Shown: piece after piece, positions 2,704 through 57,549 of the stretch
Numbering within the stretch: the stretch's first letter is position 1
Layout: every line of letters starts with the position of its first letter
Assembly: GCA_013298695.1 (NCBI GenBank)
Contig: JAAFIS010000004.1
Coordinates: 186,001 to 250,000 of the forward strand
Origin: Betaproteobacteria bacterium
GTDB taxonomy: Bacteria; Pseudomonadota; Gammaproteobacteria; Burkholderiales; Casimicrobiaceae
DNA: 64,000 bases
Direction: 5' to 3'
Made by a program: the position numbers and the translations under genes
Notes under the pieces: model-generated
What the model was told of the DNA's origin: nothing
The model's database searches: none
What the model saw: the letters and a program-made list of their open reading frames with translations, nothing else

Positions 2704-2740
2704 GTGATCGCCCAAGTTAATTGGGCGATCACGCGTTTTT
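2704..2740 (+). terminator. Rho-independent terminator-like hairpin, formed by left palindrome of repeat copy A
   Basis: A perfect 12-bp inverted repeat (gtgatcgcccaa / ttgggcgatcac) with a 5-base loop, followed by acgcgttttt. It lies just after the second solute-binding protein and faces the convergent reductase gene. The hairpin contains the left palindrome of repeat copy A, so the repeat probably supplies the terminator. Confidence 0.6.
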
Positions 2741-2794
2741 GCGCTTTTATTGATTTGTAAGTTTATTCGCTCTGTCGCTCAGTTTAATTGGGTA
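2709..2794. repeat. Paired-palindrome element, copy A (19 + 48 + 19 bp)
   Basis: Left palindrome 2709-2727 (cgcccaagttaattgggcg), 48-bp AT-rich interior 2728-2775, right palindrome 2776-2794 (cgctcagtttaattgggta, degenerate on the left arm). The interior centre reads TTGA. It sits in the gap between convergent genes. It belongs to the eight-copy family described in the findings; the boundaries are my choice, taken from the palindromes. Confidence 0.75.
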
Positions 2795-2812
2795 TTAAGC
2801 GTTTAGGCTAAC

Positions 2813-3787
2813 TTAGTAAATTCTGCGTTCGCGCGCAAATAAACGAGCAAGCCCCAAAAGCGCATCGATGTTCGGCGTTGGCACCGCAACATGCTCGCCG
2901 ATTTCACGAACAACGGAAACCAACGCGTCAAGCTCAATCGATTTCCCCGCTTCGACGTCTTGCAGCATCGACGTTTTGAACACGCCAAGTTTGCGCGTCA
3001 CGTCGTGTCGTTCCTCCGGCGACTCGGCGATCTCAATGCCGATCTTCATGCCAATCGTTTGTGCTTCTCGCATGATGCGAATACAAAACGCGCTGACCAA
3101 ATCATCATCGACGATTTTGTCGGAGGTCACACCGGTGATTGCGGAGACGGGTCCGGTCGTCATGTTGCCCCAAAGCTTGTACCAAATGTCGCGCTGAACA
3201 TCGTGTGAAACGATCGTTTCGAAACCGGCAATCGAGAGCGTTTGCGCAAGCGAAGTCAGTCGATCTGATTCGCCGCCTAGCGCCTCGCCGACGATGAGTT
3301 TGTTGCCCGCTTTTCGCCGAATCACGGCAGGCGAATCGACGCTACACGACGCATGAACGACGCAAGCGACTGTGCGCTCAGGAACGACTACTTTTGCGAT
3401 TTCGCCGTAAGGATCGATTGTTTTTAGAGGCGTATTGAAAAGCGGCCGATCCTCGCGCGCGAAGAACCACGTCGGCACGCCGTTCATCGCCGAAAGAATG
3501 ATCGTCTCAGCGTGCAGCAACGGCGCTATTTGTTTCACAACTCCGCGCAGCGCGGGCGCCTTCACCGCGATGACGACGAGATCTTGTGGGCCGAGCGCTT
3601 GCGCAAGATCGCTGGCCGTTACGTCGACGCGCGTTTGCGTATCGCCCTCAATCAGCGTTAGACCGTTTGCGCGAATCACCGCTAGCGTTTCGCCGCGTGC
3701 CAACACGCACACTTGCGCGCCCGTCTGCGCGAGTTTTACGGCCATCCAGCCGCCTATCGCCCCTGCGCCAATGACACAAACTTTCAT
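2813..3787 (-). CDS. 2-dehydropantoate 2-reductase family protein (PanE/ApbA-like)
   Basis: The protein starts MKVCVIGAGAIGGWMAVKLA, a Rossmann NAD(P)H-binding GxGxxG motif at the very N-terminus. The PanE-family centre follows: VVIAVKAPAL, ILSAMNGVP and WYKLWGNM (the lysine and asparagine region used in ketopantoate reduction). Length is about 324 residues, normal for the family. The ATG at 3787 is preceded by AAGGAG at good spacing, which decides this start over an upstream in-frame one. True PanE makes pantoate for CoA. However, many members beside flavin-linked 2-hydroxyacid dehydrogenases act on other 2-keto acids, and a gene of that kind ends 40 bp upstream in the same direction. I therefore leave the exact substrate open. 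Confidence 0.82.
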   Translation of the reverse strand: MKVCVIGAGAIGGWMAVKLAQTGAQVCVLARGETLAVIRANGLTLIEGDTQTRVDVTASDLAQALGPQDLVVIAVKAPALRGVVKQIAPLLHAETIILSAMNGVPTWFFAREDRPLFNTPLKTIDPYGEIAKVVVPERTVACVVHASCSVDSPAVIRRKAGNKLIVGEALGGESDRLTSLAQTLSIAGFETIVSHDVQRDIWYKLWGNMTTGPVSAITGVTSDKIVDDDLVSAFCIRIMREAQTIGMKIGIEIAESPEERHDVTRKLGVFKTSMLQDVEAGKSIELDALVSVVREIGEHVAVPTPNIDALLGLARLFARERRIY

Positions 3788-3827
3788 GCAGCGTCTCCTT
3801 CGGCCCCTGCACGGATCACACAAATCT

Positions 3828-5234
3828 TCATCCCACAATTCCCTTCCCTGGATTCATCATGCCGCGTGGATCAAGCGCCTGCTTGATCGCACGTTGCAAC
3901 TTCATTTCGACATCACTTTTATATCGTCGCGCTTCCGCCGCACGCAATACGCCGAGCCCGTGCTCCGCAGAAATCGAGCCGGCGCACGCGATCACCGCAT
4001 CATGCACGATGCGATTCACGGCGGGTTCAATTTCGGAAAACGATTCACCACGCTCGCTTGTCTTCGGCGAGATGTTGTAGTGCAAATTTCCATCGCCCAA
4101 ATGCCCAAACACAATCATTCGCGCTTCAGAAAACGCATTCGTGACTTTCGCATTCGTTTCGCGAATGAATGCCGCAAACTTAGAAATCGGCACCGAGATA
4201 TCGTGCTTGATGTTCTTGCCCGCCTTTGCCTGCGCCTCACCCATGTTCTCGCGCAACGCCCAAAAATCACGCGTTTGCGAAAGATTGGTGGCAATTGCTG
4301 CATCGGTGACAAGCGCTTGTTCGAAGGCGGTCTCCAGCAACGATTCGAGCGTGCTCGCCGCGTTAGCTTCGTCAACGTTGTCGCTGACTTCTATGAGCAC
4401 ATACCAGTCGCTCGCCTGCGAAAGCGGCCAGCGCGAGCTCGGCATTTGTTCCCGCAACAAATCAACGCAGTCCTGCGACAGCAATTCAAAAGCCGTGAGC
4501 TTCGCGCCCGCATGCGATTGCGCGAGCTGCAATAACTCGGTGGCGTTCTCAACGGTGCCAATCGCCGCCCAAGCGCACAACGTTGCCTTCGGTAGGGGAA
4601 ACAACTTTAATGTCGCCGCCGTGATGATGCCGAGTGTGCCTTCTGAGCCGATAAAGAGATCGCGCAAGTCGTAGCCAGAATTATCTTTGCGCAAACCACG
4701 CAAGCCGTCCCAAATCTCTCCGTCCGCAGTCACCACTTCGAGCCCAAGACACAAGTCGCGCGCATTGCCATAACGCAACACACCAACACCGCCCGCGTTC
4801 GTCGCGAGATTGCCGCCAATCATGCACGAGCCTTCCGCCGAGAGCGAGAGCGGGAACAAACGATCGCTGTCTTTCGCAAGCTCTTGAAGCGTTTGCAAAA
4901 TGCAACCCGCCTCGACTGTCATCGTATTGTTGATCGGATCGATAACGCGCACGCGATTCATTCGGGCAAGCGAGAGTACGACTGTAGTGCCCTGCTGATC
5001 CGGCGTTGCCGCGCCAGACATTCCCGTGTTTCCACCCTGCGGCACGATGGAAAATCCGTTGTCGATGCACCAGCGCACAATCTTCACAACATCGTTCGTT
5101 GTGTATGGTTGCGCAACGGCAAATGCGTTGCCCCTCCATTTGTGTCGCCAATCCGTCAGAAACGGTGCCATCTCCGTCGACTCAGAAAGCAGCCGTCCAG
5201 AAAAGCAATCGCGCAGTGAATTCAATAACGCCAT
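3828..5234 (-). CDS. FAD-linked 2-hydroxyacid dehydrogenase (GlcD / D-2-hydroxyglutarate dehydrogenase-like)
   Basis: About 468 residues. The FAD-binding PCMH domain shows VPQGGNTGMSGAATPDQQG, SAEGSCMIGGNLATNAGG and GSEGTLGIITAATLKLF. The C-terminal FAD-oxidase domain has FGHLGDGNLHYNIS, SAEHGLGVLR and a closing DPRGMMNPGKG. This is the layout of GlcD, D-lactate and D-2-hydroxyglutarate dehydrogenases, which oxidise D-2-hydroxyacids and pass electrons to quinone or ETF. Translation could also begin 10 codons upstream. The chosen ATG at 5234 begins MALLNSLRDCF, where homology starts. The PanE-like reductase follows in the same direction after 40 bp, suggesting a two-gene hydroxyacid operon. 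No GlcE or GlcF partner is adjacent. Confidence 0.85.
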   Translation of the reverse strand: MALLNSLRDCFSGRLLSESTEMAPFLTDWRHKWRGNAFAVAQPYTTNDVVKIVRWCIDNGFSIVPQGGNTGMSGAATPDQQGTTVVLSLARMNRVRVIDPINNTMTVEAGCILQTLQELAKDSDRLFPLSLSAEGSCMIGGNLATNAGGVGVLRYGNARDLCLGLEVVTADGEIWDGLRGLRKDNSGYDLRDLFIGSEGTLGIITAATLKLFPLPKATLCAWAAIGTVENATELLQLAQSHAGAKLTAFELLSQDCVDLLREQMPSSRWPLSQASDWYVLIEVSDNVDEANAASTLESLLETAFEQALVTDAAIATNLSQTRDFWALRENMGEAQAKAGKNIKHDISVPISKFAAFIRETNAKVTNAFSEARMIVFGHLGDGNLHYNISPKTSERGESFSEIEPAVNRIVHDAVIACAGSISAEHGLGVLRAAEARRYKSDVEMKLQRAIKQALDPRGMMNPGKGIVG

Positions 5235-5291
5235 GACGGTTTTCTCATAACATTGGGTAGCCATTTTGCACGATCACACGTCCTACGAACC

Positions 5292-6560
5292 ATGACTTCG
5301 ACCGCCTTTCCCGATTCCCGCGAAACACGTACGCCTTCAGCGCGCGAAGCTGATTTGTTCGCCCGCCTGCCCGCGCAGATTGCGCACGCGAAAGCAAGCG
5401 CACCTGCTGTTGCGAAACTGCTTGCGAATGTCGATCCTGCGGCGATCACGTCACGCGCCGCGCTCGCGACGCTGCCAGTCTTTCGTAAAAGCGAATTGCT
5501 GGATGCACAAAAAGCGAGTCGACCTTTCGGCGGATTTGCTGCGGTGGGCTGGGGCGCAATGGCTAAACGTGCGGAACGTGTGTTCGCGTCACCCGGCCCG
5601 ATTTATGAACCTGAAGGTCATGGCAGCACGCATTACGCACGCACCGCGCGTGCGCTCTACGCGGCGGGCTTTCGCCCGGGCGATCTGGTGCACAACACCT
5701 TCGCGTATCACATGACACCTGGTGGCTGGATCATGGATGCGGGCGCAACCGCGCTCGGCTGCACTGTGTTTCCTGCGGGCGTCGGCAACACCGAACAGCA
5801 GATTGCGGCAATGCTTGATTTACAGCCCAATGGGTACACTGGAACGCCGTCTTTTCTGCGCATCTTGCTAGAAAAGGCAGATGAACTTGGCACGCCGATC
5901 ACAAGCTTGAAAAAAGCAGCCGTTTCCGGCGAATTTTTCGCACCGCAGCTGCGCGACATGTTCAAAGCACGCGGTATCGTCGGCACGCAAAGCTATGCGA
6001 CAGCGGAGCTCGGCCTTGTAGCGTACGAAGCGCCAGATGCATCGGGCAATGTTCAGGGCATGGTGATCGATGAAGATCTTATTCTTGAAATCGTCAAACC
6101 GGGAACTAATGATCCGCTGCCCGATGGCGAAGTCGGTGAGATTGTGGTGACGACATTTAATCCTGACTATCCGCTGATTCGTTTTGGTACTGGCGACTTA
6201 TCCGCAGTGTTGAGCGGAACGTGCCCGAGTGGTCGCACGAATACCCGCATCAAAGGCTGGATGGGTCGCGCCGATCAAACGGCAAAAGTGAAAGGCATGT
6301 TTGTGCATCCGTCGCAAGTGGATGCGGTTGCCAAAAAATTTCCTGAGTTGGGTCGTGTACGACTCGTGCTCACCAATCCTGATCAACGTGACGCGATGGC
6401 GCTGCATGTGGAGTGCGCCGCGCCTAACGATGCGCTGAAAGCAGCAATTGCGAATGCATTGCGTGACGCGACGAAGCTCGGTGGTGAGGTGACGTTTGTA
6501 TCGATGGCTTCACTTGCCAATGATGGAAAGGTGATTGATGACGCAAGAAAATATGACTGA
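5292..6560 (+). CDS. Phenylacetate-CoA ligase-like AMP-forming ligase
   Basis: About 422 residues of the PaaK branch of AMP-dependent synthetases: activation of a carboxylate as acyl-adenylate, then transfer to CoA. Visible signatures are HNTFAYHMTPGGWIMDAG, GYTGTPSFLRILLEKA, AAVSGEFFAPQLRD, then GTQSYATAELGLVAYEA (AMP-binding region) and LIRFGTGDLSAVL. The C-terminal lid domain includes RADQTAKVKGMFVHPSQV. The protein lacks the usual long N-terminal segment of PaaK and is close to the shorter PaaK-like enzymes. The ATG at 5292 is chosen because residues before it are not family-like. The last 23 bases overlap the next gene, so the two are translationally linked. The substrate is unknown. Confidence 0.82.
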   Translation: MTSTAFPDSRETRTPSAREADLFARLPAQIAHAKASAPAVAKLLANVDPAAITSRAALATLPVFRKSELLDAQKASRPFGGFAAVGWGAMAKRAERVFASPGPIYEPEGHGSTHYARTARALYAAGFRPGDLVHNTFAYHMTPGGWIMDAGATALGCTVFPAGVGNTEQQIAAMLDLQPNGYTGTPSFLRILLEKADELGTPITSLKKAAVSGEFFAPQLRDMFKARGIVGTQSYATAELGLVAYEAPDASGNVQGMVIDEDLILEIVKPGTNDPLPDGEVGEIVVTTFNPDYPLIRFGTGDLSAVLSGTCPSGRTNTRIKGWMGRADQTAKVKGMFVHPSQVDAVAKKFPELGRVRLVLTNPDQRDAMALHVECAAPNDALKAAIANALRDATKLGGEVTFVSMASLANDGKVIDDARKYD

Positions 6561-7650: not shown

Positions 7651-7745
7651 AACACTGCGCGGGTGCCGACTTCGTAGCAACCCGATGCACCTTTTCGCCA
7701 ATCCGCGTTCATAATCGAATAATTCCATCTATTTCCGGAGCCGTC

Positions 7746-8744: not shown

Positions 8745-8769
8745 ATTGATTCTTGGCGCTTTGCTAAAT

Positions 8770-8855
8770 CGCCCAATTAAATCGGGCGATCGCCTCAAAT
8801 CGCGGATAAGTTAGTTCTATATTTTTATGCCGCGATCGCCCACTAGGAAGGGGCA
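8770..8855. repeat. Paired-palindrome element, copy B
   Basis: Left palindrome 8770-8788 (cgcccaattaaatcgggcg), interior 8789-8836 (48 bp), right palindrome 8837-8855 (cgcccactaggaaggggca). The interior centre reads TTAG, the only copy whose fourth core base is not A. It lies 25 bp after the Bug gene and before the membrane-protein gene. Confidence 0.75.
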
Positions 8856-8947
8856 CTCCGATTGTTTGTTGGCGCAATAGAATTTGATGTTCCAAGCTTC
8901 GGCGTAACTGCGTCTACATCGGCATTGTTATACGAATAATCAACGCC

Positions 8948-9733: not shown

Positions 9734-9772
9734 AAAACGTGACGCGCGCGAGCTCTAGTGGCGGCCAACGCG

Positions 9773-11517: not shown

Positions 11518-11630
11518 AATCTAACCCTTATTCCATTTCCAGTTCGATGCGAGATTAGGCGCGACGACGAAGACAGTGCGAATGCACGGCGAGGAGAAGC
11601 AACGACATATCGGATTGAAATGGAATGGAA

Positions 11631-12518
11631 TCATTCGACGTAGGTGACTGCGCGCTGCAACCGCGCAAAGAACAAATCGAGCAACATGCCGACGACGCCG
11701 ATCACCAAGATCGCAAAAATCACATTGGTGAGCGACAAGTTGTTCCATTCGTTCCACACGAAATAGCCGATGCCGGTGCCGCCAACGAGCATTTCTGCCG
11801 CAACGATTACGAGCCATGCGATGCCCATCGAAATGCGCATGCCGGTGAGAATCGTGGGAGCCGCCGCAGGCAGAATCACCTTCAACGCTTTGCGCAACGG
11901 CTTCACTTCAAGTGTGCTTGCCACGTTTAACCACTCGCGTTTCACCGATGCCACGCCGAACGCGGTGTTGAGCAGCATTGGCCAGACCGAGCAAATGAAA
12001 ATCACGAACACACCGCTGATCGACGAATCTTTGATCGTGTAGAGTGCAAGCGGCATCCACGCGAGCGGAGAAATCGGTTTCAACACTTGAATGAACGGAT
12101 CGAACGCGCGTCGCAACAAAGGCGACATGCCGATTACAAACCCCAAGGGTATTGCGACCAAACACGCGATCAAAAATCCAAGCCCCACGCGCGCGAGCGA
12201 ATAGGCGAGTTGGATCGCGATGCCTTTGTCGTTCGGGCCGTTGTCGTAAAACGGGTTGCTCAATTGCTTCACAACCGTGCTACCCATTTGCGCGAGCGTC
12301 GGGAAGCCAGTAGTTTTGGCTGTCTCACCCGCTGCGGGTGCGCTCTTGCCCATCAATTTGTCGTATTCAGCTTGTTCCGCCGACACTGGCGTTGTCGGCG
12401 CAGGTGCGGGCGCGCTTTGCAGGGTTGCCGCATGCCACACCGCAAGGATGAACACGAAGATCAAGAGCGAGACCAGCCCCGCTCTGAATTCGAGTGATTT
12501 AAATAGTGAAGCGTTCAT
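11631..12518 (-). CDS. ABC importer permease, nitrate/cyanate type
   Basis: About 295 residues with a first transmembrane helix at the N-terminus (AGLVSLLIFVFILAVWHAAT). A periplasmic Ala/Pro-rich segment follows, then the transporter core with five further helices. The cytoplasmic coupling motif is seen around EWLNVASTLEVKPLRKALKV, followed by ILPAAAPTILTGMRISMGIA, the EAA loop that contacts the ATPase. It belongs to the NrtB/CmpB/SsuC family. The ATG at 12518 is preferred over an upstream in-frame start that would read into the inverted-repeat element. A 113-bp gap separates it from the ATPase gene. Confidence 0.87.
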   Translation of the reverse strand: MNASLFKSLEFRAGLVSLLIFVFILAVWHAATLQSAPAPAPTTPVSAEQAEYDKLMGKSAPAAGETAKTTGFPTLAQMGSTVVKQLSNPFYDNGPNDKGIAIQLAYSLARVGLGFLIACLVAIPLGFVIGMSPLLRRAFDPFIQVLKPISPLAWMPLALYTIKDSSISGVFVIFICSVWPMLLNTAFGVASVKREWLNVASTLEVKPLRKALKVILPAAAPTILTGMRISMGIAWLVIVAAEMLVGGTGIGYFVWNEWNNLSLTNVIFAILVIGVVGMLLDLFFARLQRAVTYVE

Positions 12519-12540
12519 TAATCGGCGAAGGATTAGGTGT

Positions 12541-12640
12541 CCCTCCCCCTTCAAGGGGGAGGTTAGGAGGGGGATGGGTTCGATTCATTTGCTGAAAAGA
12601 AACCCATCCCCACCCTAGCCCTCCCCTTGAAGGGGAGGGA
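12541..12640. repeat. 100-bp inverted-repeat element (CCCCTTGAAGGGG type)
   Basis: Two 40-bp arms (12541-12580 and 12601-12640) are near-perfect reverse complements around a 20-bp loop. Each arm itself contains the palindrome ctccccttgaaggggag (or a one-base variant). It lies between the binding-protein and permease genes. A single arm of the same sequence lies inside the start of xdhB at 39383-39421, so this is a dispersed, MITE-like repeat. As RNA it would form a very stable hairpin within the operon message, which could attenuate the genes downstream of it. Confidence 0.85.
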
Positions 12641-12646
12641 ACTGGG

Positions 12647-14041
12647 TTAAGAGAGTTTATTAATCTTGAAACTCTTCACATATTCATCAGGTTTCGTCGG
12701 ATCGAATTCGCGCCCCATTACTTTGAAGCGTTTGTAATTGCCCGCTTCGGTTTGCCAGCCCGCCTCGGTCATGTACTTTTTCGCATCAGTAATCATGAAC
12801 ACTTTCTCAGCGATCTGTTTGTAGTTCACGTCGCCTTTGATGTAGCCCCAACGCTTCATTTGTGTGAGGATCCAAACCGCCATACTGTGCCATGGCACCG
12901 GATCGAAGTTCGCGCGATCAGGCACATTTTTCACCCCGCCCAAACCATCAGCGAACTTGCCGGTGAGCACCTGCGCAACAACAGTTTCTGGCTGATTGAG
13001 ATACGCGGTCGGCGCAATCGATTTAGCAATCAGCGCGCGGTTTGACGGCTCCTTGGCCATGTAAGCTGCGGCGATGAGCGAACGATAGAGGGCCGCGAAC
13101 GTATTTGGATTTTGCTTGATGAATTCATCGCTCACGCCGAACGCGCAGCACGGATGTCCGTCCCAAATTTCTTTCGAGAGAATGTGAATGAAGCCGACTT
13201 CGTCATACACCGCGCGTTGGTTAAACGGATCGGGCCCGAGGAAGCCGTCGATGTTGCCAGCGCGCAGGTTGGCGACCATTTCCGGCGGCGGCGTCACGCG
13301 GATTTGCACATCAGTATCGGGATTAATGCCGCTTTCTGCGAGGTAGTAGCGCAGCAAAAAATTGTGCATGCTGTATTCAAACGGCACCGCGAACTTGAAG
13401 CCTTTCCAGTCTTTGGGATTCCTCTTGTCTTTGTGTTTGACATGCAGCGTGATCGCTTGACCATTCGTGTTCTGAATCGTCGCCACATTCATGTTCACCT
13501 GATTCGAACCGAGACCCATCGACATCGCAATTGGCATCGGCGCCAAGAAGTGCGACGCGTCGTGTTCCTTGTTAATCATCTTGTCGCGAATGAGTGCCCA
13601 GCCCGCGGTTTTATTCAGCGATACATTGAGCCCTTGGCGTTTATAGAAACCTAGCGGATCGGCCATAATAATTGGGGAAGCGCACGTGATTGCGATAAAC
13701 CCGATCTTGAGATCTTTCTTCTCTAGCGCCCCACTATTTTGAGCCATGGCTTCCAAGGCTGATAGCGGGAACATTGAGGCAATTGCAGCGCGCGCGGTGT
13801 TCGTGCCCACCGCTCTCAGAAATCCGCGACGCACGCTATCCACTGGGAAGAGCGCCTTCATCACTGTCGCTTCAATCACGTTGCGCGACATGTCTTCTTC
13901 GTTGTGCAAACGCTGAGCCGCGATTTCGTTGTGTTGATCTGGCGCGTGGTCTTCGCCGCAACTGCAGCCGACGAGAAGAGGTTTTTCTGCGTTATACGGG
14001 TCGTAGAGCGCGGAGATACCGGTGTTGGAAGGCTTTGACAT
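12647..14041 (-). CDS. CmpA/NrtA-family periplasmic binding protein with long N-terminal region
   Basis: 464 residues. The mature domain (from about residue 108) is of the nitrate/bicarbonate/cyanate-binding type: LKIGFIAITCASPIIMADPL, KTAGWALIRDKMINKEHDAS, HFLAPMPIAMSMGLGS and FLGPDPFNQRAVYDE. A twin-arginine export motif, SVRRGFLRAVG, is preceded by about 70 cytoplasmic residues that contain GCSCGEDH and two further histidines. This Cys/His group could bind metal, though that is not established. It is the first gene of the transporter-cyanase operon, 133 bp after the response regulator. Its ligand could be cyanate, nitrate or nitrite. Confidence 0.87.
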   Translation of the reverse strand: MSKPSNTGISALYDPYNAEKPLLVGCSCGEDHAPDQHNEIAAQRLHNEEDMSRNVIEATVMKALFPVDSVRRGFLRAVGTNTARAAIASMFPLSALEAMAQNSGALEKKDLKIGFIAITCASPIIMADPLGFYKRQGLNVSLNKTAGWALIRDKMINKEHDASHFLAPMPIAMSMGLGSNQVNMNVATIQNTNGQAITLHVKHKDKRNPKDWKGFKFAVPFEYSMHNFLLRYYLAESGINPDTDVQIRVTPPPEMVANLRAGNIDGFLGPDPFNQRAVYDEVGFIHILSKEIWDGHPCCAFGVSDEFIKQNPNTFAALYRSLIAAAYMAKEPSNRALIAKSIAPTAYLNQPETVVAQVLTGKFADGLGGVKNVPDRANFDPVPWHSMAVWILTQMKRWGYIKGDVNYKQIAEKVFMITDAKKYMTEAGWQTEAGNYKRFKVMGREFDPTKPDEYVKSFKINKLS

Positions 14042-21529: not shown

Positions 21530-21953
21530 ATTGAATCTCAGATTGTATCGTGGACTTCACGAGAACTTGTCTACAAATCGCGACAGTATTGACTTTTTTC
21601 TAAAAACGCCAATTTAATTGGGCTTTCGTGCAAATAAAGTCTTAACTTGATAAATTGTGTTAATACGAGTATCGCCCATTTAAACTGGGTGAAAAAGAAA
21701 AATGCTGTGCGCAACCTGTGCTACTGACGCTTCACGGCAAGTTCGCCTTGAAAGCTGCCCAGTTTTGTCGGAAGTTGCGCTGTAGCGCCCTTCAGTGCGC
21801 TTATCTCACCCGGCCAAACAGATACGCGCAAGAAGTGTGACAGCGCGAACGACAAACGCGCCGCGGGAGGCCGACGATGACGAGGGTTTACTCCAGAGCG
21901 CCGAGGCGGCAGCGTGTCCGCAGGCGCGTGCGTAAGCGCCAATCGGCGCTTGC
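21530..21953. other. 424-bp intergenic region with repeat copy C
   Basis: The region lies between the endopeptidase gene and the CARDB gene, both on the minus strand. It holds repeat copy C (21606-21691). The rest includes a GC-rich stretch (21720-21953) that reads open on the minus strand but encodes an arginine-rich, low-quality peptide, which I do not call as a gene. No other structure was seen. Confidence 0.5.
21606..21691. repeat. Paired-palindrome element, copy C
   Basis: Left palindrome 21606-21624 (acgccaatttaattgggct), interior 21625-21672 (48 bp, centre TTGA), right palindrome 21673-21691 (cgcccatttaaactgggtg). It lies upstream of the endopeptidase gene and downstream of the CARDB gene. 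Confidence 0.75.
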
Positions 21954-25039: not shown

Positions 25040-25078
25040 CAATTGAGCGGCGTATTCTGATGTAACTTACGATCTATA

Positions 25079-25164
25079 ACGCCGATTTAATTGGGCAATG
25101 ACATCGATTGATTGGCGCATCGATTATTTATGAAAACTGGTTTGTAGCCCAATTAAATACGGGT
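25079..25164. repeat. Paired-palindrome element, copy D
   Basis: Left palindrome 25079-25097 (acgccgatttaattgggca), interior 25098-25145 (48 bp, centre TCGA within atcgat), right palindrome 25146-25164 (agcccaattaaatacgggt). It lies in the 221-bp gap between the adaptor and transporter genes of the RND pump. Confidence 0.75.
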
Positions 25165-25260
25165 ACTCAAGCTAGAGTTGTGAGTGAGTTTGTGCGCAGC
25201 CACGGACGTCTGCCACCACTTTGACGACATACGAACGCGGTTCACCGCCGAGGTAGTTTT

Positions 25261-37645: not shown

Positions 37646-39253
37646 ATGAATGCAGTGTCAACATCAATCAAGTTTTTGCTGAATGGCGCACCGCACGAAG
37701 TCGCTGATCTTGATCCGCACACGAGCGTACTCAGTTATTTGCGCGAACATCTGTTCTTAACCGGCACCAAAGAAGGCTGCGCAGAGGGTGATTGCGGTGC
37801 GTGTACGGTGGCAATCGCAGAGCTAGACGGCGTGGATCGGCTGCGAGTGATGCCGATCAACGCGTGCATCCGTTTGCTGCCAACGATTGATGGAAAAGCG
37901 CTGTTCACCGTAGAAGCGCTCTCCATGTTTGGCGAGAGCGGCGAGCTGCATCCGGTGCAACAAGCGATGGTTGATTGCCACGCCTCGCAATGTGGGTTTT
38001 GTACGCCGGGATTCGTGATGTCGCTTTTCGCGCTGTTCAAAAACGACGTAGCGCCGTCACGCGAACGCATCTGCGAAGCAATCTCGGGGAATTTGTGTCG
38101 ATGCACCGGTTACCGGCCGATTATCGAGGCGGCACAGCAAGCAACACATTCCCGAATCGCCCAATCGATGCGGGCGAACGAATCAGAAAATCAGATTGTT
38201 GACAAAAACAATTTAGCGGCTTCACACCCATTTAAATTGGGCCTAGAAATCCGAAGCTCATCTAGTACTTGGCTACATTGCGCAGCCGCCGACTCCAACG
38301 CTCCCGCTGCCCGCGACGCGGAAAAACATATTGCTAAATCACTCGCAGCGCTACAGCGGAACTCTGCGCTTGATTACCGCGCGAACGACGCACGCTTCAT
38401 CGCGCCGCGAACCCTTGATGAATTCTCCACGCTCGTTGAAACGCTTCCGAGCGCATGGATTTTGAGCGGCGGCACTGATGTCGGTTTGTGGATCAACAAA
38501 GCCCTGCAAACAAATTCGACAATCCTCTACACGGGCGAAATCGCCGCGTTGCGCAAAATTGATATTCATCAAGGCGCGCTCACGATTGGCGCAGCAGCAT
38601 CGCTGGAAGATGCATTCCGCGCGATGAATCAGCACTATCCCGAACTCGCGCATGTGTGGACGCGTTTCGCGAGCTGGCCGATTCGAGCGAGCGGCACGTT
38701 GGGCGGTAATGTCGCCAACGGTTCGCCGATTGGCGACTCCATGCCCGCCCTCATCACGCTCGGCGCGGAAGTGGTGTTGCGTAAAGGCGCGAAGCAGCGA
38801 ACAATTCCACTTGAATCGCTCTACATCGATTACAAAAAGCAATCACGTGAACCCGGCGAATGGGTGGAAGCGATTCGCGTTCCCGCACGCGCGGAAGGGA
38901 TGCAAATCGCGAGCTATAAAAATTCGAAACGCAACGAACAAGATATTTCAGCCGTGTGCGCCGCGATTGCGATGACGATTGAAGACGGTGTTGTTACGAA
39001 AGCGCGCATCGCATACGGCGGCGTTGCGGGAATTCCGAAACGTGCAGCAAACACCGAAGCTGCGGTGATTGGAAAACCGTGGAACGAAACAACGGTTCGC
39101 GCCGCAATGCAAGCGATGACGAATGACTTCACGCCGATGAACGACATGCGCGCGTCGGCGGAGTATCGGATGCAAGTTGCGCAGAATCACTTGCTGCGGT
39201 TTTGGCATGAATCGCAGGACGAAGCGGCATCGCTTGAAGCGCGGGTGTTCTGA
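37646..39253 (+). CDS. xdhA: Xanthine dehydrogenase small subunit (2Fe-2S and FAD domains)
   Basis: 535 residues, longer than the usual 460-500. The plant-type [2Fe-2S] domain has EGCAEGDCGACTVAI. The second cluster has CHASQCGFCTPGFVMSLFAL and ISGNLCRCTGYRPI. The FAD domain from about residue 245 shows WILSGGTDVGLWINK and ASGTLGGNVANGSPIGDSMP. It oxidises hypoxanthine and xanthine with XdhB, transferring electrons to NAD+. Between the two domains lies an extended linker (about residues 170-205), encoded by repeat copy H, which stays in frame. The operon continues with xdhB and xdhC. Confidence 0.95.
   Translation: MNAVSTSIKFLLNGAPHEVADLDPHTSVLSYLREHLFLTGTKEGCAEGDCGACTVAIAELDGVDRLRVMPINACIRLLPTIDGKALFTVEALSMFGESGELHPVQQAMVDCHASQCGFCTPGFVMSLFALFKNDVAPSRERICEAISGNLCRCTGYRPIIEAAQQATHSRIAQSMRANESENQIVDKNNLAASHPFKLGLEIRSSSSTWLHCAAADSNAPAARDAEKHIAKSLAALQRNSALDYRANDARFIAPRTLDEFSTLVETLPSAWILSGGTDVGLWINKALQTNSTILYTGEIAALRKIDIHQGALTIGAAASLEDAFRAMNQHYPELAHVWTRFASWPIRASGTLGGNVANGSPIGDSMPALITLGAEVVLRKGAKQRTIPLESLYIDYKKQSREPGEWVEAIRVPARAEGMQIASYKNSKRNEQDISAVCAAIAMTIEDGVVTKARIAYGGVAGIPKRAANTEAAVIGKPWNETTVRAAMQAMTNDFTPMNDMRASAEYRMQVAQNHLLRFWHESQDEAASLEARVF
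38158..38243. repeat. Paired-palindrome element, copy H, inside xdhA
   Basis: Left palindrome 38158-38176 (cgcccaatcgatgcgggcg), interior 38177-38224 (48 bp, centre TTGA), right palindrome 38225-38243 (cacccatttaaattgggcc). It encodes RIAQSMRANESENQIVDKN and NLAASHPFKLGLE of the XdhA interdomain linker, without stop codons in that frame. Confidence 0.75.
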
Positions 39254-41904: not shown

Positions 41905-42807
41905 GTGAGAAACACTTTCGCTCGTTTGCAACAACTCGCAGAACACGAACCCTGCGCCTGGATCATCATCGCCGACGCAAAAGGCTCAACGCCGCGCGAA
42001 ACCGGCGCATCAATGATCGTCACTGCCACGAAAACTTTCGACACCATTGGCGGTGGGCATCTTGAGTTCAAAGCGATTGAGTTCGCGCGCGAGCAGTTAC
42101 AGCGAAACGCAGGCGCCGCGACAACACGTCACTTTCCGCTTGGCCCCGCGCTCGGTCAATGCTGCGGTGGCGCAGTGACGTTGCTATTTGTCCCGATGAA
42201 CGTGATGCATCGAGAATCAATCGCAAAGCTCATGGGCGAAGCAGCCAGCGGCAAACCACTCTCATTCACAACAACGCTCGACACTGGCGAATGCATTACC
42301 GTCGCACTACCTTACGAAGCGTGGAACATTTGCATCTTCGGCGCAGGCCATGTCGGCAAAGCGATAGTGGATGTGCTCTCGACTTTGCCCTGCGACATCA
42401 CTTGGATCGACGAACGCGAAGCGGAATTTCCGGAACACGTCGCAGCGAATGTAGAAATCATTCATTCCGATTCACCTGCTCGCGAAGTCACGGCGATTCC
42501 CGCCGCCGCGCAAGTGCTCGTGCTCACTCATTCGCATGCGCTGGATTTGGACATTTGTTTTGCTTTGCTTAAGCGCGATGATCTTGCGTATTGCGGTCTG
42601 ATCGGTTCCGAAACAAAAGCGGCAACGTTTCGCAAACGATTTGAGAATCGCGGCATTTCAGCGGCGGAAATCTCTCGTATCATGTGCCCGATTGGCGATG
42701 TACAACTTAAAAGCAAAGTGCCGGGCGTGATTGCGGTGGGCGTTGCGCGTGATTTGATTTTGAGACATCAGCAATACGCTTTATCGCCCAGTATTATTGG
42801 GCGATAA
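41905..42807 (+). CDS. xdhC: Xanthine dehydrogenase accessory protein XdhC
   Basis: 300 residues. XdhC binds molybdenum cofactor, promotes its sulfuration and inserts it into XdhB. The N-terminal part shows WIIIADAKGSTPRETGASMI, TIGGGHLEFKAIEFA and LGPALGQCCGGAVTLLF with the conserved cysteine pair. The C-terminal Rossmann part is ICIFGAGHVGKAIVDVLS. It starts with GTG at 41905, preceded by GGAG, and no better ATG exists. The last codons and the stop (SPSIIGR) are read from the left palindrome of repeat copy E. It is the third gene of the xdh operon, upstream of a nucleoside-type importer. Confidence 0.93.
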   Translation: MRNTFARLQQLAEHEPCAWIIIADAKGSTPRETGASMIVTATKTFDTIGGGHLEFKAIEFAREQLQRNAGAATTRHFPLGPALGQCCGGAVTLLFVPMNVMHRESIAKLMGEAASGKPLSFTTTLDTGECITVALPYEAWNICIFGAGHVGKAIVDVLSTLPCDITWIDEREAEFPEHVAANVEIIHSDSPAREVTAIPAAAQVLVLTHSHALDLDICFALLKRDDLAYCGLIGSETKAATFRKRFENRGISAAEISRIMCPIGDVQLKSKVPGVIAVGVARDLILRHQQYALSPSIIGR

Positions 42808-42870
42808 GGTCGTTTTTATTGTTTATTAAAAATACCGTAGATATTGCTTGTCGCCCGCAAGAATGGGGCG
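42785..42870. repeat. Paired-palindrome element, copy E, overlapping the xdhC 3' end
   Basis: Left palindrome 42785-42803 (cgcccagtattattgggcg, extended to 11 bp arms by flanking ttat / ataa), interior 42804-42851 (48 bp, centre TTAA), right palindrome 42852-42870 (cgcccgcaagaatggggcg). The left hairpin is followed by ggtcgttttta, so it may act as a terminator after xdhC. Confidence 0.75.
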
Positions 42871-42906
42871 ATGAGCGATTAAGTTGATAACGAATCAAAC
42901 TAGGGA

Positions 42907-47762: not shown

Positions 47763-47787
47763 AAGCCGCTTTCGAGCGGCTTTTTAT
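47763..47787 (+). terminator. Rho-independent terminator after the importer operon
   Basis: aagccgctttcgagcggctt with a short tetraloop-like turn is followed by ttttatt. It lies 22 bp after the binding-lipoprotein stop, closing the purine operon. Confidence 0.85.
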
Positions 47788-47806
47788 TTACAACAATCAT
47801 GCTAAT

Positions 47807-47892
47807 CGCCCAATCTATTTGGGCCGTACGGTATAAAAATTAACTGATCAAGTACGAAATAAATTAGTGCTTTTGCCCACAATTAATGGGCG
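47807..47892. repeat. Paired-palindrome element, copy F
   Basis: Left palindrome 47807-47825 (cgcccaatctatttgggcc), interior 47826-47873 (48 bp, centre TCAA), right palindrome 47874-47892 (tgcccacaattaatgggcg). It lies in the gap between the convergent importer and glutaminase genes, 20 bp after the terminator. Confidence 0.75.
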
Positions 47893-47910
47893 GTACATAT
47901 AAAAGCTGAT

Positions 47911-48825
47911 TCAGAAAATTGATCGCTTCGTCATCGTCGTAAACATCTCCAGCGCGAGTGACCCGGCGTGGCTGTTCCCGCTCGGCTCCAGCGCGGGCGA
48001 CCACACGCAGATGCCGCATTCGCCCGGAAGAATCGCAACGATTCCGCCACCGACGCCGCTTTTTGCGGGCAGGCCGACGCGGAATGCGAAATCACCGGCT
48101 GCGTCGTACGTACCGCAGGTCAACATCAACGCGGACAAACGTTTCGCTGAACTCGCGTCGATCACGGTTTCGCCGCTCCACGGATTGACGCCGCCGTTCG
48201 CGAGAAAACACGCCGCCTTCGCAAGCTCCACGCAATTCATTTCAATCGCGCAGTGGCGGCAATACGCATCGAGCACATCGCCGACTTTGTTTTGCAAGTT
48301 GCCAAAGCTTTTCATGAAATGCGCCATCGCCGCGTTGCGTGACGACGTTTCGCGCTCGGATTGCGCGACCTTTCGGCTATAGCCAATATCGTTCGCACCG
48401 GAAATTTTGCGCATGAAATCCACCAGCGCGTTTTCAGCATTCACAAATCGACTCGCAAGCATGTCGGTAACCACCAGCGCACCCGCATTGATGAACGGAT
48501 TTCTCGGAATGCCGTTCTCGCGTTCGAGCTGTACGAGTGAATTAAATGGATTGCCCGAAGGCTCGCGCCCCACGCGCGTCCAGAGCGAATCGCCTTCGCG
48601 CTGAAACGCAAGTGTCAACGCAAACAATTTCGAAATCGATTGAATCGAAAAGCGCGTGTTCGCATCGCCCACGAGATTCACATTCCCCGAAAAATCAACC
48701 ACCGCCATGCCAAATTGATCGGCGCGCACGCTAGCCAATTCAGGAATGTAGGACGCGACCTTGCCCTCACCGAGCACGGGTTTGATTGCGGCATAGATTC
48801 GGTCGAGTGTGGGTTGATACGTCAT
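47911..48825 (-). CDS. glsA: Glutaminase
   Basis: 304 residues of the serine-dependent beta-lactamase-like glutaminase family, which hydrolyses glutamine to glutamate and ammonia in the cytoplasm. The catalytic SxxK is in RFSIQSISKLFALTLAF. Other family segments are NPFNSLVQLERENGIPRNPF, INAGALVVTDML, CANGG-like ACFLANGGVNPWSG and KSGVGGGIVAILPGECGICV. The ATG at 48825 starts MTYQPTLDRIYAAI and is preferred over an upstream in-frame start that runs into the repeat. Downstream it faces the importer operon. Confidence 0.95.
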   Translation of the reverse strand: MTYQPTLDRIYAAIKPVLGEGKVASYIPELASVRADQFGMAVVDFSGNVNLVGDANTRFSIQSISKLFALTLAFQREGDSLWTRVGREPSGNPFNSLVQLERENGIPRNPFINAGALVVTDMLASRFVNAENALVDFMRKISGANDIGYSRKVAQSERETSSRNAAMAHFMKSFGNLQNKVGDVLDAYCRHCAIEMNCVELAKAACFLANGGVNPWSGETVIDASSAKRLSALMLTCGTYDAAGDFAFRVGLPAKSGVGGGIVAILPGECGICVWSPALEPSGNSHAGSLALEMFTTMTKRSIF

Positions 48826-51884: not shown

Positions 51885-52060
51885 GTGAATATCTTTCTGG
51901 GAGACTGAAGGCGAATTAAGGGTCGAATGGTACATAAAAACCGTCCTCAGAATGTGGCTAAAGCAAGTCTTGGCGCGGGTTCTAGCGTTGCTGCAGCGCG
52001 ATATACTTCATTCCCATCGTTTGAGGTGTTTGAGCGGTGGATTTTGTTGAACCGCTGTAC

Positions 52061-55000: not shown

Positions 55001-56056
55001 TACAAAGCGCAGCGCTTCGCGCATACGCTCGCGAAGCGTTTCGGCTTGATTGGATCGCAAACTAAACGCCCGCCCGCGACTACCGGTGTCAAACCACCGA
55101 TCAAAGCGCAGGTGATTCATTTCATCAATAAGCCGATGCCGGGCGGATTGCCGAAACAAACCGCGCGCAAGCTACTCGATATTGAAGACGATAAAGTCGT
55201 GCCGATTATTCGCAATCCGAAGATGAGCGCGGATGAGCAAGAGCCAGTGTTTTATTTCCCCGGTTGTGGTTCAGAGCGATTGTTCTCGCAAGTGGGGTTG
55301 GCGACGCAAGCGATGCTCTGGCACGTCGGCGCGCAAACGGTGTTGCCGCCGGGCTATCTCTGCTGTGGCTATCCGCAAACCGCGAGCGGCAATCACGATA
55401 AGGGTCAGGAAATCATCACCGACAATCGTGTGCTGTTCCATCGCATGGCGAATACGCTCAACTATCTCGATATCAAAACCGTGATCGTTTCTTGCGGCAC
55501 CTGCATGGATCAATTGCAGAAATATGAATTCGAGAAAATTTTCCCCGGCTGCCGTCTGCTCGATATTCACGAATACTTGATGGAAAAAGGCGTGAAGCTC
55601 GAAAACATCACCGGCACGCGCTACATGTATCACGACCCGTGCCACACGCCGATGAAAACCTATCAACCGACCAAAGTCGTGAACGAATTGATGGGGCAGA
55701 AAGTGGATTTGAACGAGCGTTGCTGCGGCGAATCCGGCACGCTCGCGGTGACGCGCCCGGACATTTCAACGCAAGTGCGTTTCCGTAAGGAAGAAGAGAT
55801 GCGCAAAGGGGCAGAAAAACTGCGCGCCAATCCGGTGAAATCAGCGTCAGGCGCGGAGCAAAAATTCGAAGGCGACGTGAAGATTCTCACCAGCTGCCCA
55901 AGCTGCTTGCAGGGCCTCTCACGCTTTGACAATGACAGCGACACCAAAGCCGACTACATCGTCGTCGAAATCGCGAAACATGTGCTCGGTGAGAAGTGGT
56001 TGCCGGAGTATGTGGAGCGGGCGAATTCGGGGGGGATTGAGAGGGTGTTGGTGTGA
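52061..56056 (+). CDS. DUF3683 FAD-oxidoreductase fused to Fe-S and CCG domains
   Basis: About 1331 residues, a fusion of several modules. DUF3683 (about 55-150) has [20 protein letters not shown]. The FAD-binding domain (about 225-450) has [20 protein letters not shown] and [20 protein letters not shown]. The FAD-oxidase C domain has [15 protein letters not shown] and [14 protein letters not shown]. Two 4Fe-4S clusters follow at about 853 ([11 protein letters not shown]) and 915 ([12 protein letters not shown]). Then come CCG domains: [34 protein letters not shown] and [11 protein letters not shown]. The layout resembles GlcD and GlcF in one chain, so it probably oxidises a 2-hydroxyacid (lactate-like) and feeds electrons to the chain. 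A GTG at 52037 is an alternative start. Confidence 0.9.
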
Positions 56057-56077
56057 GGTCGCGGACTAACTGAATCG

Positions 56078-56473
56078 ATGCTTATTCCGAATTTCATCGA
56101 AATACTGTTTGGGATGATGGTCGCGTCTATAGTTGGCGGGCTCGTTTCGCTGCGGCTCGTAAAAAAGAAGCCGGCGACCGCTTGGATTGATCATGAGTCT
56201 TTGCCTATTCGGTGGTTTCACCGCACCAGCCTTTTTCTAGCAACGATCCTGATGCCACTATCGTTGAATACGGTGGTAACCACATTGATCATGAAGTACT
56301 TTCAGATATCGAATGTGGCGTACAGTGAGCTTGGTGTATGGATTCAACTTTGGCTGTTAGTGGGCACTCTGATATGCGCTTCTTTGTTGTACCGCAGCCT
56401 GTCGAACTACAGCAGATCGCTTCACCAGAGCGTCGATCAAGCAAGACGTAATACCTGCGTGCCTGGCCACTGA
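56078..56473 (+). CDS. Small membrane protein of unknown function
   Basis: 131 residues with hydrophobic segments at about 5-27, 48-70 and 88-108. The sequence begins MLIPNFIEILFGMMVASIVG, with a first helix and a basic loop RLVKKKPATAW. It starts 21 bases after the stop of the DUF3683 gene on the same strand. I do not recognise the family. Codon use appears like that of the neighbours, and the helix pattern supports a real gene. Confidence 0.55.
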   Translation: MLIPNFIEILFGMMVASIVGGLVSLRLVKKKPATAWIDHESLPIRWFHRTSLFLATILMPLSLNTVVTTLIMKYFQISNVAYSELGVWIQLWLLVGTLICASLLYRSLSNYSRSLHQSVDQARRNTCVPGH

Positions 56474-56638
56474 CATGCGAGATCCCAATTTCTCCAATCC
56501 GCGCTGGTTCGTACTAATTTCGGTGCAGTAAGGCCGCAACCTACGATCACCACGGAAAACCGACCGTCATATGATCTGAATCAACGCTCGTACGCATAAA
56601 CGCATCAAAATTCACCTCAACCCCTCAAGGAGATCACG

Positions 56639-57061
56639 ATGAAAGTTTTACTTGCGGTCGATGGCAGCAAACACACCAAGAAAATGCTTGCCTATCTCTC
56701 AACGCACGAGGGCTTGCTCGGCACGACCCCAGAGTATGTGGTGCTTAACGTGCAAATGCCGATTCCGCCACGTGCGGCGCGCGCTGTCGGTAAAGAGATT
56801 GTTGAGAATTTTCATCACGCGGAATCGGAAACGGTGATGAATCCGGTGTGTAAATTTCTTGATCGCCACAGCGCAACTTACAAAACGCGAACAGTCGTGG
56901 GCCACGCGGCGGAAGAAATTTTGAAGTGCGCAAAAAAAGATAAGGTCGATTTGATCGTGATGGGTTCGCGCGGTCACGGCAGCTTCACATCGATGTTGCT
57001 CGGATCGGTGGCGCAGAAGGTGCTCGCGCAGGCAGAGGCGCCGGTGATGGTGGTTCGCTAG
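56639..57061 (+). CDS. Universal stress protein, UspA family
   Basis: 140 residues with the nucleotide-binding fold. The N-terminus is MKVLLAVDGSKHTKKMLAYL. The ATP-binding motif is IVMGSRGHGSFTSMLLGSVA (G-2x-G-9x-G-S type), followed by QKVLAQAEAPVMVVR. Such proteins are induced by starvation and other stresses. A ribosome site AAGGAG lies eight bases before the ATG. A bidirectional terminator follows, shared with the convergent dodecin gene. Confidence 0.93.
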   Translation: MKVLLAVDGSKHTKKMLAYLSTHEGLLGTTPEYVVLNVQMPIPPRAARAVGKEIVENFHHAESETVMNPVCKFLDRHSATYKTRTVVGHAAEEILKCAKKDKVDLIVMGSRGHGSFTSMLLGSVAQKVLAQAEAPVMVVR

Positions 57062-57076
57062 CGAATGGATGAGTGG

Positions 57077-57120
57077 CGGCGAATAAAAAAAGGCGCTTCA
57101 CGCGCCTTTTTTATTCGCCG
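57077..57120. terminator. Bidirectional rho-independent terminator
   Basis: A long inverted repeat (cggcgaataaaaaaaggcgc / gcgccttttttattcgccg) with a short loop. A-run on one side and T-run on the other make it work in both directions, between the convergent UspA and dodecin genes. Confidence 0.92.
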
Positions 57121-57130
57121 CGAGTTCGGT

Positions 57131-57334
57131 TCATTCTGCGAGGATAAACGTCACTTTCATCGAGACGCGATAGGCAACTATCTTGCCTTTACTGATGACG
57201 ACTTTCTGATCTTGAATCCATGCGCCTTCGACGTTCTTCAACGTTTTGCAGGCGCGATCAATACCCTGTTTGATGGCGTCGTCAAAACTTTTCTTTGATG
57301 ACGAGGTGATTTCGGTGACGCGTGCAACGCTCAT
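57131..57334 (-). CDS. Dodecin, flavin-binding protein
   Basis: 67 residues of the dodecin family, which assembles as a dodecamer that stores or buffers flavins. Signature: MSVARVTEITSSSKKSFDDA, TLKNVEGAWIQDQKVVISKG and the conserved VTFIL end. The aromatic that sandwiches the flavin (W in GAWIQDQ) is present. A GGAG ribosome site precedes the ATG. It is separated from gpsA by 237 bp containing repeat copy G. Confidence 0.92.
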   Translation of the reverse strand: MSVARVTEITSSSKKSFDDAIKQGIDRACKTLKNVEGAWIQDQKVVISKGKIVAYRVSMKVTFILAE

Positions 57335-57463
57335 GATGAACTCCTTGGGTGATGGGATACGCGCTGCACGAATGCGCTGGCGCGACGGACGAGTTCTAGC
57401 CTCATTTCGTGTCGACGTCTAGCCGAATCTTTCCGAAAGTTTGAATGCAGCTTAAGACTATAA

Positions 57464-57549
57464 GCGCCGTTTCAACTGGGCGAAAAAGCGCTATAGAGGG
57501 TAAATCGAAAAATATTGAAACTAATCGTCAAGCCCAATAAGAACGGCGC
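57464..57549. repeat. Paired-palindrome element, copy G
   Basis: Left palindrome 57464-57482 (gcgccgtttcaactgggcg), interior 57483-57530 (48 bp, centre TCGA), right palindrome 57531-57549 (agcccaataagaacggcgc). In this copy the outer halves pair best with each other (gcgccg with cggcgc), so it also reads as a terminal inverted repeat. Confidence 0.75.

Follow-up and report, generated by a model that had tools for sequence, protein, structure and literature searches.

A stretch of 64,000 nucleotides from a Betaproteobacteria genome (contig JAAFIS010000004.1; hereafter the window) carries eight copies of a sequence in which two 19-bp palindromes always stand 48 bp apart, and the question that it raises is what keeps this distance constant when the interiors do not align. 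The earlier note that listed these copies as 86-bp units had proposed selection on geometry, in the form of two sites bound by one complex, a twin-hairpin RNA or a unit whose interior is exchanged. When the window was analysed again, all eight core copies (8/8) were located at the coordinates given below, each of 19 + 48 + 19 bp. The core coordinates were thus correct, but the limits of the unit had to be widened, as the core is only the inner portion of a conserved dyad of about 126 bp. This dyad is made, in order, of an outer AGCTT(TT) block, a palindrome, AT-rich blocks with a phase of about 9.6 bp and a central TCGA, followed by the mirror image of the same parts. Its consensus has full two-fold symmetry and no strandedness, and no strand was assigned to any copy.

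Element A (2689..2814, core 2709-2794) lies between convergent SBP_bac and ApbA-like genes and element B (8750..8875, core 8770-8855) has a TctC gene on one side and a DUF6498 gene on the other. Element C (21586..21711, core 21606-21691) is the top-scoring copy of the window. Element D (25059..25184, core 25079-25164), the best conserved site, is found between HlyD-type adaptor and AcrB-type genes. Element H (38138..38263, core 38158-38243) is located within an xdhA-like gene, where it falls in the linker that joins the Fer2_2 domain to the FAD_binding_5 domain, and element E (42765..42890, core 42785-42870) overlaps the end of an xdhC-like ORF. Element F (47787..47912, core 47807-47892) lies between convergent genes, just past a terminator-like sequence, and element G (57444..57569, core 57464-57549) between dodecin-like and gpsA-like genes. 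Two further copies were detected, a weaker one of 34 bits within an NMT1-family gene (13640..13765, core 13660-13745), absent from the earlier list, and the weakest, of 13 bits, within the called gene 60568-62106 (61045..61170, core 61065-61150).

The pitch between palindromes was then tabulated. In the window, with palindrome-like 19-mers defined by at least 12 of 19 matches, a pitch of 67 bp was found for eight pairs, whereas any other distance up to 200 bp was represented by one pair at most. The eight pairs correspond to seven of the listed copies plus the pair 13660/13727; the right arm of copy G falls under the cut. In a non-random 464-kb sample, composed of the window and 20 stretches of 20 kb picked around strong palindromes, the unique partners of 66 strong palindromes were at pitch 67 in 28 cases and at 66 in three, with six single pairs at other pitches between 19 and 200, so that the interior lengths are not broadly spread and the 48-bp interior held. 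Genome-wide, the pattern GCCCA-N7-TGGGC-N50-GCCCA-N7-TGGGC was found at 92 places with up to two mismatches, and the reversed pattern at none. The copy number was estimated at 146-637, varying with threshold and method; the element is probably present in hundreds of copies.

The interiors are diverged, with a mean pairwise identity of 35% among 55 copies and a best match of 32/48, and no near-identical copies were found among these 55. However, to call them unrelated was right only as far as alignment goes, as the central TCGA is conserved and the AT-rich blocks keep a fixed phase. The W/S phasing power reached 0.82 against a null maximum of 0.033, and 0.41 against 0.025 for the interior by itself. 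An exchange of interiors is not supported by this pattern, in which the interiors diverge but retain their centre and the phasing of their AT blocks.

The element was detected in 16 of the 17 genomes of one Burkholderiales genus of environmental bacteria, G016 being the only one without a match, compared to none of 47 genomes from the other genera of the family. When the junctions matching sites A to H were inspected in congeners, an element was called at 33 of 84 and not at the other 51, and presence varied among species at every site. Site D was occupied in 11 of 14 congeners. The remaining sites were occupied in 5/10 congeners for A (G001, G005, G011, G013 and, weakly, G002), 2/4 for B (G002 and G009, both weak), 4/14 for C (G002, G009, a weak G010 and G014 with 51.5 bits), 6/10 for E (G005, G011, G013, weak G002 and G010, and G007), 2/11 for F (G002 and G011), 2/9 for G (G002 and G010, several others having a different next gene) and 1/12 for H (G009, 17.3 bits). 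Several of these matches are weak, the lowest at 13.6 bits, and for five just one flank was mapped (G001, G005, G011 and G013 at A; G011 at F). In stretches fetched around matching junctions, all the matches were at such a junction (9/9 in 135.6 kb and 19/19 in 89.5 kb). The copy at 13660 had no called counterpart in the equivalent gene of either G004 or G007; the best sub-threshold score of G004 sits at the matching position. Retention, which may reflect purifying selection, is clear at site D and partial across the eight sites, and the fixed pitch together with elements at orthologous junctions with diverged interiors strongly supports the selection on geometry proposed before.

In three species (G003, G007 and G012), the inner palindrome GCCCA-N7-TGGGC is replaced by CGACC-N7-GGTCG, which in the G012 consensus (20 copies, from 61 places) occupies positions 2-6/14-18. 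Both types occupy the same positions of the element and sometimes the same locus: G007 has a CGACC-type element at its site E (89.5 bits), and G012 (93.0 bits) and G003 (82.2 bits) each have one at site D. The unrooted trees of two loci did not tell which type is older. This switch suggests that a binding protein changed its specificity and that the sites followed in place. Specificity switches are known for ParB/Noc, according to the accessible text of one report (PMC7383237), and Noc sites are 16 bp long in that of another (PMC8429893).

Regarding gene context, counts based on the gene calls of a simple in-house caller showed that convergent junctions were enriched (19/57 elements vs. 29/178 spaces of at least 100 bp, Fisher P 0.008), whereas divergent ones were depleted (5/57 vs. 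40/178, P 0.021). Many copies lie directly past stop codons. The flanking genes were unrelated, and a regulon was dropped as an explanation. Copies were also found inside genes. One of 71 bits in an epimerase-family gene spans a YGKSK stretch, and the alignment of the protein to 8rdg had no insertion across its extent; another of 56 bits, in an iminohydrolase-like gene, coincides with just 4 extra residues compared to 3mdu. With a matrix built without coding copies, these sites still scored 61.8 and 46.9 bits, respectively. By contrast, about 9 residues more than in 4y0w were seen within or beside the span of the TsaB-like coding copy, and the linker in which H sits is variable in length. Some copies could therefore be insertions.

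The rigid layout, the positions kept between species and the freedom of the letters in between suggest the docking of a large protein complex. The element would be a putative double-stranded docking site of about 126 bp for a large two-fold symmetric complex, with TCGA at its centre, a reading to which we give a probability of roughly 0.58. Among the three forms of selection first proposed, two sites bound by one complex is the one that fits best. A sequence-specific, HTH-like protein would bind the 17-bp palindromes as two dimers, 33.5 bp on each side of the centre, and the same or a partner complex would touch the centre as well as the outer AGCTTTT blocks. The DNA would be bent or wrapped, with AT blocks facing inward about once per helical turn, and the constant 67-bp pitch would hold all contacts in register; when the protein shifted its specificity, the sites would have changed along with it. 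As flanking genes have no common theme, convergent junctions are favoured and divergent ones avoided, and some copies are intragenic, the role is likely to be in chromosome architecture or topology and not in the regulation of single genes. The element holds 66-90 bits summed over 126 positions, and since a site this long is hard to build by point mutation, an older step of dispersal is likely.

A bolder version of the docking site is more tentative, and we put it at clearly less than even odds: a nucleosome-like complex that wraps about 126 bp at hundreds of loci would fold the chromosome genus-wide, and all of its sites, at one junction after another and also within enzyme genes, would have been rewritten where they stood when the binding protein changed its specificity. 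If true, a rigid composite site of 126 bp in hundreds of copies, some at deeply conserved positions, would imply a wrapping complex new for bacteria, whose chromosome sites are short to our knowledge. The series of species in which either palindrome type can stand at a given junction is a natural experiment on how the sites of a DNA-binding protein, many at a time, change along with it. No description of the element was found in the searched open-access literature, as far as its accessible text extends.

Among the alternatives, strong DNA gyrase sites survive best, although we regard them as unlikely. In this reading the element would trap gyrase at gene ends, where positive supercoils would be removed, as do BIME-2 of E. 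coli and the centre site of phage Mu, and the enrichment at convergent junctions would suit it. Gyrase wraps about 130 bp symmetrically round a 4-bp staggered cut, the arms being held by the GyrA C-terminal discs, and the element has a similar build, with 126 bp, symmetry, a 4-bp centre and phased arms. The E. coli gyrase motif is described, in the accessible text of its report, as symmetric over 130 bp, with a central part from -16 to 19 and arms from -63 to -17 and from 20 to 66 that are periodic at 10.75 bp with AT facing the protein (PMC6379681), whereas the period of the element is about 9.6 bp. When the W profile built from 58 copies of G000 was run over 20 kb of phage Mu, the annotated cut centre came at rank 159 of 19,872 (606 with 19 congener copies, 203 with the pooled profile), and the sole S4-W9-S4 block there lies 34.5 bp from the cut, compared to 33.5 bp in the element. 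The right arm ranked 14-18 one bp off the cut centre but just 556-2103 exactly at it, where left arm and core were near chance. With the palindromes masked, the match fell to ranks 3500-4255, and the G012 profile reached rank 1735.

Further points against gyrase come from its distribution and from base content. Gyrase is universal, whereas the element turned up in a single genus; the palindrome core of the G012 type is not rich in AT, with a W of 0.33-0.47 at positions 7-13, and both the base-specific GGG/CCC and the palindrome switch require that bases be read. The repeat number of GyrA was not unusual, as the counts of GyrA-repeat matches did not differ between the genus (6-7, none in G013) and genomes outside it (6-8, two with none). 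The phage relatives of the Mu site were uninformative, as all eight records were at least 95% identical to Mu. Gyrase therefore fits the element partly, and as a full explanation it is weakened by the masked Mu test and the G012 type.

Next to be weighed, and quite improbable in our opinion, are old mobile elements of the REPIN/MITE type, with two inverted palindromic ends at a fixed distance, a variable spacer and a transposase acting in trans, now decayed. The length of the motif makes an ancestral spread plausible, and the patchy presence among congeners would agree with it. However, REPINs show compensatory changes, and in the element no excess of arm complementarity over shuffled partners was detected in 14 of 16 tests on four species sets, the two below 0.05 being both from G000 (P 0.031 and 0.044). 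Absence of near-identical copies, retention of site D and copies overlying conserved protein domains without insertion also speak against decayed mobile elements, and a true dispersed repeat of the same window has copies that align at 78-88% in congeners. A companion RAYT/TnpA-like gene, for which the earlier note had advised looking, was represented in G000 by a single Y1_Tnp match, flanked by a different, GTAG-type REP, and the link was dropped. That the element is not a REP, which the same note had stated on sight, is thus borne out by test. REPINs are the closest published system, and their fixed spacing was absent from the comparison made there.

A recombination or integration site for a serine or tyrosine recombinase, with TCGA as the crossover, is very improbable: symmetric arms about a short conserved centre have the appropriate form, and one clear copy lies on an IMG/VR contig (L193:8843-8957), but the chromosomal copies are probably in the hundreds, and an unsystematic look at the regions compared revealed no cassettes between copies. 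In viral contigs the exact pattern gave no match and the frame pattern five, of which the copy on L193 alone resembles the element; a scan of ten proteins of that contig gave one Pfam family, DUF1376.

The RNA option, a twin-hairpin terminator or mRNA-stability element, is the least credible of all and was dropped: despite the copies past stop codons, the terminator-like hairpin in the left palindrome of E and an excess over independent expectation in the 55 pooled copies for the palindrome column pairs 1/19, 7/13 and 9/11 (3/9), an excess that may come from mixing species types, the compensatory stem changes once envisaged showed no clear covariation, with single-species pair totals near the column expectation, a separate terminator-like sequence adjoins F, copies lie inside conserved coding domains, the consensus has no strand and no Rfam match reached its gathering score in the window.

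Compared to known systems, the element shares with REPINs two palindromic conserved ends at a fixed distance (71 or 110 bp in REPINs, in the accessible text of PMC3116915; pitch 67 here), a less conserved spacer and a high copy number, but differs from them in its conserved centre, in the lack of clear hairpin covariation and of a cognate RAYT among the genes found, and in having some positions kept across species and copies that overlie genes without insertion. With the Mu site, BIME-2 and the E. coli gyrase motif it has in common a two-fold symmetric span of about 130 bp, phased AT/GC arms, a short centre and a frequent location at gene ends; unlike them, it has a high base-specific content, was found in a single genus, switches palindrome letters and, in the CGACC type, has a core that is not AT-rich. 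Finally, the sites of chromosome-organising proteins (parS/ParB, NBS/Noc and matS/MatP) are also dispersed dyads, but parS, NBS and matS are single short palindromes, whereas here a pair of palindromes is joined with outer blocks and a central part in one unit of 126 bp.

The eight copies first seen by eye in the window (A–H) were all located, each measuring exactly 19+48+19 bases, with two 19-bp palindromes around a 48-bp interior. Between palindrome-like 19-mers of the window, the distance of 67 was found eight times and every other distance up to 200 at most once; the eight pairs comprised seven of the A–H copies and an additional pair at 13660/13727. Broad variation of interior length around 48 was looked for and not seen, and the pitch of 67 dominated both the window and a 464-kb sample of the source genome (G000), made up of the window and 20 stretches picked around strong palindromes and thus biased towards them. 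Unique partners among 66 strong palindromes of this sample stood at pitch 67 in 28 cases, at 66 in three and at six other pitches in one each, and 43 pairs counted at pitches 65–69 only were distributed as 36 at 67, four at 66, two at 69 and one at 68. A whole-genome search with the paired-palindrome pattern returned 92 places at up to two mismatches and none with the reversed pattern. With an element matrix, 81 elements were detected in the sample at 5 bits or more, a count that includes the copies used to build the matrix, and none in two third-order Markov shuffles, even at thresholds down to −5 bits. The expectation of hundreds of copies in the genome was borne out as an estimate of 146–637, varying with threshold and method.

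The 86-bp unit of the earlier note proved to be the core of a larger conserved dyad of about 126 bp, in a consensus from 36 copies aligned by pitch and symmetrised, plus 19 loci of congeners (G001–G016). From the outside in, each half carries (C)AGCTT(TT) at −15 to −8 and then the palindrome; a drifting stretch, in which AT-rich blocks occupy 29–32 and 38–40, leads to the central TCGA, followed by the mirror image; in the G011 set, the centre is mostly AAAGTCGACTTT. No alignable sequence was seen in the interiors of 55 copies, which average 35% pairwise identity and reach 32 of 48 positions at best. In 58 G000 copies, AT content was periodic over the whole element (period near 9.6 bp, power 0.82 vs. 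a null maximum of 0.033) and over the interior alone (9.2 bp, 0.41 vs. 0.025), and scarcely so in the flanks (0.049 vs. 0.045).

A sequence-only model built from 58 copies, in which each place scores on both strands, detected the element in 16 of the 17 genomes of the genus. Eight had at least 150 scored matches each (about 75 places), followed by G009 (147), G002 (132), G004 (118), G014 (107), G008 (15), G007 (7), G003 (4), G012 (2) and G016 (0). Under stricter filters, 47 genomes from six further genera of the family gave the model no match, and the paired-palindrome pattern had none in the 43 genomes searched outside the genus. Two of ten stretches matching the pattern look unrelated, L052 being a GC-rich repeat and L053 a regular array, judged from positions alone. 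G016 and G008, with no or few elements, are also the smallest two of the genus in genome size, a hint that elements are lost as genomes shrink. One clear copy was seen on the viral-filed contig IMGVR_UViG_3300049488_000082 (L193:8843–8957), where only one of ten proteins scanned had a Pfam family, DUF1376. In two genomes (G000:C18:241091–241109 and G006:C16:1543–1626), a palindrome or element is also found near the gyrA C-terminal repeats, which may be chance given the element density.

G012, G007 and G003, almost without matches to the 58-copy model, gave 61, 44 and 37 places with a palindrome-blind pattern (AGCTTT..GTCGAC..AAAGCT, free gaps of 38–60) that matched 11 of the 17 genomes; its reversed control matched once, in G012. 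The G012 consensus, from 20 copies of the 61 places, keeps the common frame with CGACC-N7-GGTCG at 2–6 and 14–18 replacing the GCCCA-N7-TGGGC of the others, and its core between the palindrome arms is not AT-rich. Both types share junctions, the G012 type standing at E (overlapping the end of an xdhC-like ORF) in G007 (89.5 bits) and at D (between HlyD-type adaptor and AcrB-type genes) in G012 (93.0 bits) and G003 (82.2 bits). Unrooted trees of two loci did not tell which type is older.

After the window was located in the congeners, stretches were taken around the junctions corresponding to A–H. All nine matches outside the window in a first scan (135.6 kb) fell at the junction of a G000 copy, and all 19 in a second (89.5 kb) at corresponding junctions, in stretches selected around these junctions and with several matches weak, down to 13.6 bits; five more were found at E in G007, D in G009, G012 and G003 and C in G014. 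With misses counted, the element was held at 33 of 84 congener junctions: 5/10 at A (mapped via one flank only in G001, G005, G011 and G013), 2/4 at B, 4/14 at C, 11/14 at D, 6/10 at E (the G011 copy being one of the 58 used for the model), 2/11 at F (one flank only in G011), 2/9 at G (where the following gene differs in several genomes) and 1/12 at H. At D, the element was called in G001, G002, G004, G005, G006, G009, G011, G013 and G015 and, with the CGACC palindrome, in G003 and G012; none was detected in G008 or G016, and a degenerate one in G010 was recognised by eye only. Because the motif is kept beside a drifted interior in genomes whose aligned DNA is mostly 64–87% identical, the comparison suggests purifying selection on motif and spacing at D and E; gains and losses are frequent at the remaining sites. 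A second, ordinary dispersed repeat of about 105 bp (11527–11633 and 12538–12642) has matches 78–88% identical in many congeners; its copies align, whereas the element interiors do not.

By a simple purpose-made gene caller, some of whose calls may be spurious, the 81 elements divide into 57 between genes, 21 centred within a called gene and three at stretch ends. The intergenic ones occupy 19 convergent, 33 tandem and 5 divergent junctions, compared to 29, 109 and 40 among spaces of at least 100 bp, convergent junctions being over-represented (Fisher P 0.008) and divergent ones under-represented (P 0.021). A Pfam family was found in eight of nine scanned products of element-containing genes. 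A 71-bit copy (L020:6910–6995) corresponds to residues 130–171 of an epimerase-family protein, with no insertion relative to 8rdg_A across the aligned part, which includes the YGKSK stretch and stops at residue 156; a 56-bit copy (L021:884–969) corresponds to residues 275–317 of an iminohydrolase-like protein with just four extra residues compared to 3mdu_A. Since an insertion of 126 bp would lengthen a protein by 42 residues, these two copies, at the least, were written into pre-existing sequence. A weaker copy (24.5 bits) in a homogentisate dioxygenase gene is also without insertion, a TsaB-like copy has about nine extra residues within or adjoining its span, and H lies in a length-variable linker of the xdhA-like protein. 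Six coding copies keep 38–64 bits with a matrix lacking nine copies in or near called genes. Read in frame, the G000 palindrome gives Ala-Gln-(Leu/Phe)-Asn-Trp-Ala (e.g. L020:6910, L021:884, L025:4533, L008:13095), and AQLNWA-like peptides are repeated across unrelated proteins.

The most economical account, which we consider somewhat more likely than not, is that the element is a large putative protein docking site in double-stranded DNA, where we infer the protein, its binding and the wrapping. A specificity dimer would sit at each palindrome, the DNA would probably be bent or wrapped by the docked complex, and the likely role would be in chromosome architecture or topology. The recount with misses included (33/84 junctions holding an element) slightly lowered the weight of this reading.

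The leading rival, that the element is a strong gyrase site, seems unlikely; gyrase may instead be a partner. In phage Mu, whose gyrase site has AT facing the protein (PMC11626157), the AT profile of the copies was centred on the annotated cut over 20 kb, where the G000 profile ranks 159 of 19,872, that of congener copies 606 and the pooled one 203; the right arm ranks 14–18 at +1 bp from the cut, but 556–2103 at the cut centre proper, where the left arm and the core score close to chance level. The sole S4-W9-S4 block in these 20 kb stands 34.5 bp from the cut. Masking the palindromes drops the profile match to rank 3500–4255, and the profile of G012, whose type lacks the AT core, ranks 1735. 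Neither the confinement to one genus nor the base-specific palindrome switching is explained by gyrase.

Rather improbable too is an origin as old REPIN/MITE-like mobile elements, now decayed, to which the junction misses gave weight. In 14 of 16 tests, complementarity between the two arms of a copy did not exceed that between arms taken from separate copies; the exceptions, both in G000, concern the palindromes (P 0.031) and the half-element (P 0.044). A co-occurring RAYT, looked for at the suggestion of the earlier note, yielded a single RAYT-like Y1_Tnp match (L005:1501–1866; G000 C1:100270–100635), with neighbours resembling, by eye, an IS110-type transposase and a toxin–antitoxin pair. 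This gene is flanked by its own GTAG-type REP, recognised by features given in PMC2817692.

A twin-hairpin RNA with compensatory stem changes was set aside, since Watson–Crick pairs in the palindromes were near the independent-column expectation within species (537 vs. 519.5 of 812 in G000, 146 vs. 144.7 of 210 in G011, 143 vs. 148.1 of 280 in G012), and an excess at three of nine column pairs (1/19, 7/13, 9/11) in the species-pooled test may be caused by the mixture of types.

Compared to known systems, the putative docking site resembles in size the Escherichia coli gyrase motif, described in PMC6379681 as symmetric, 130 bp long and phased at 10.75 bp; the element is likewise symmetric at about 126 bp, but with phasing near 9.6 bp. 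By layout, the closest published case is the REPIN (PMC3116915), whose two palindromes are spaced by 71 or 110 bp and which has a less conserved spacer, compensatory changes and a partner RAYT. Whereas the element was found without clear compensation or a matching RAYT, it shares with REPINs the paired palindromes at a fixed distance.
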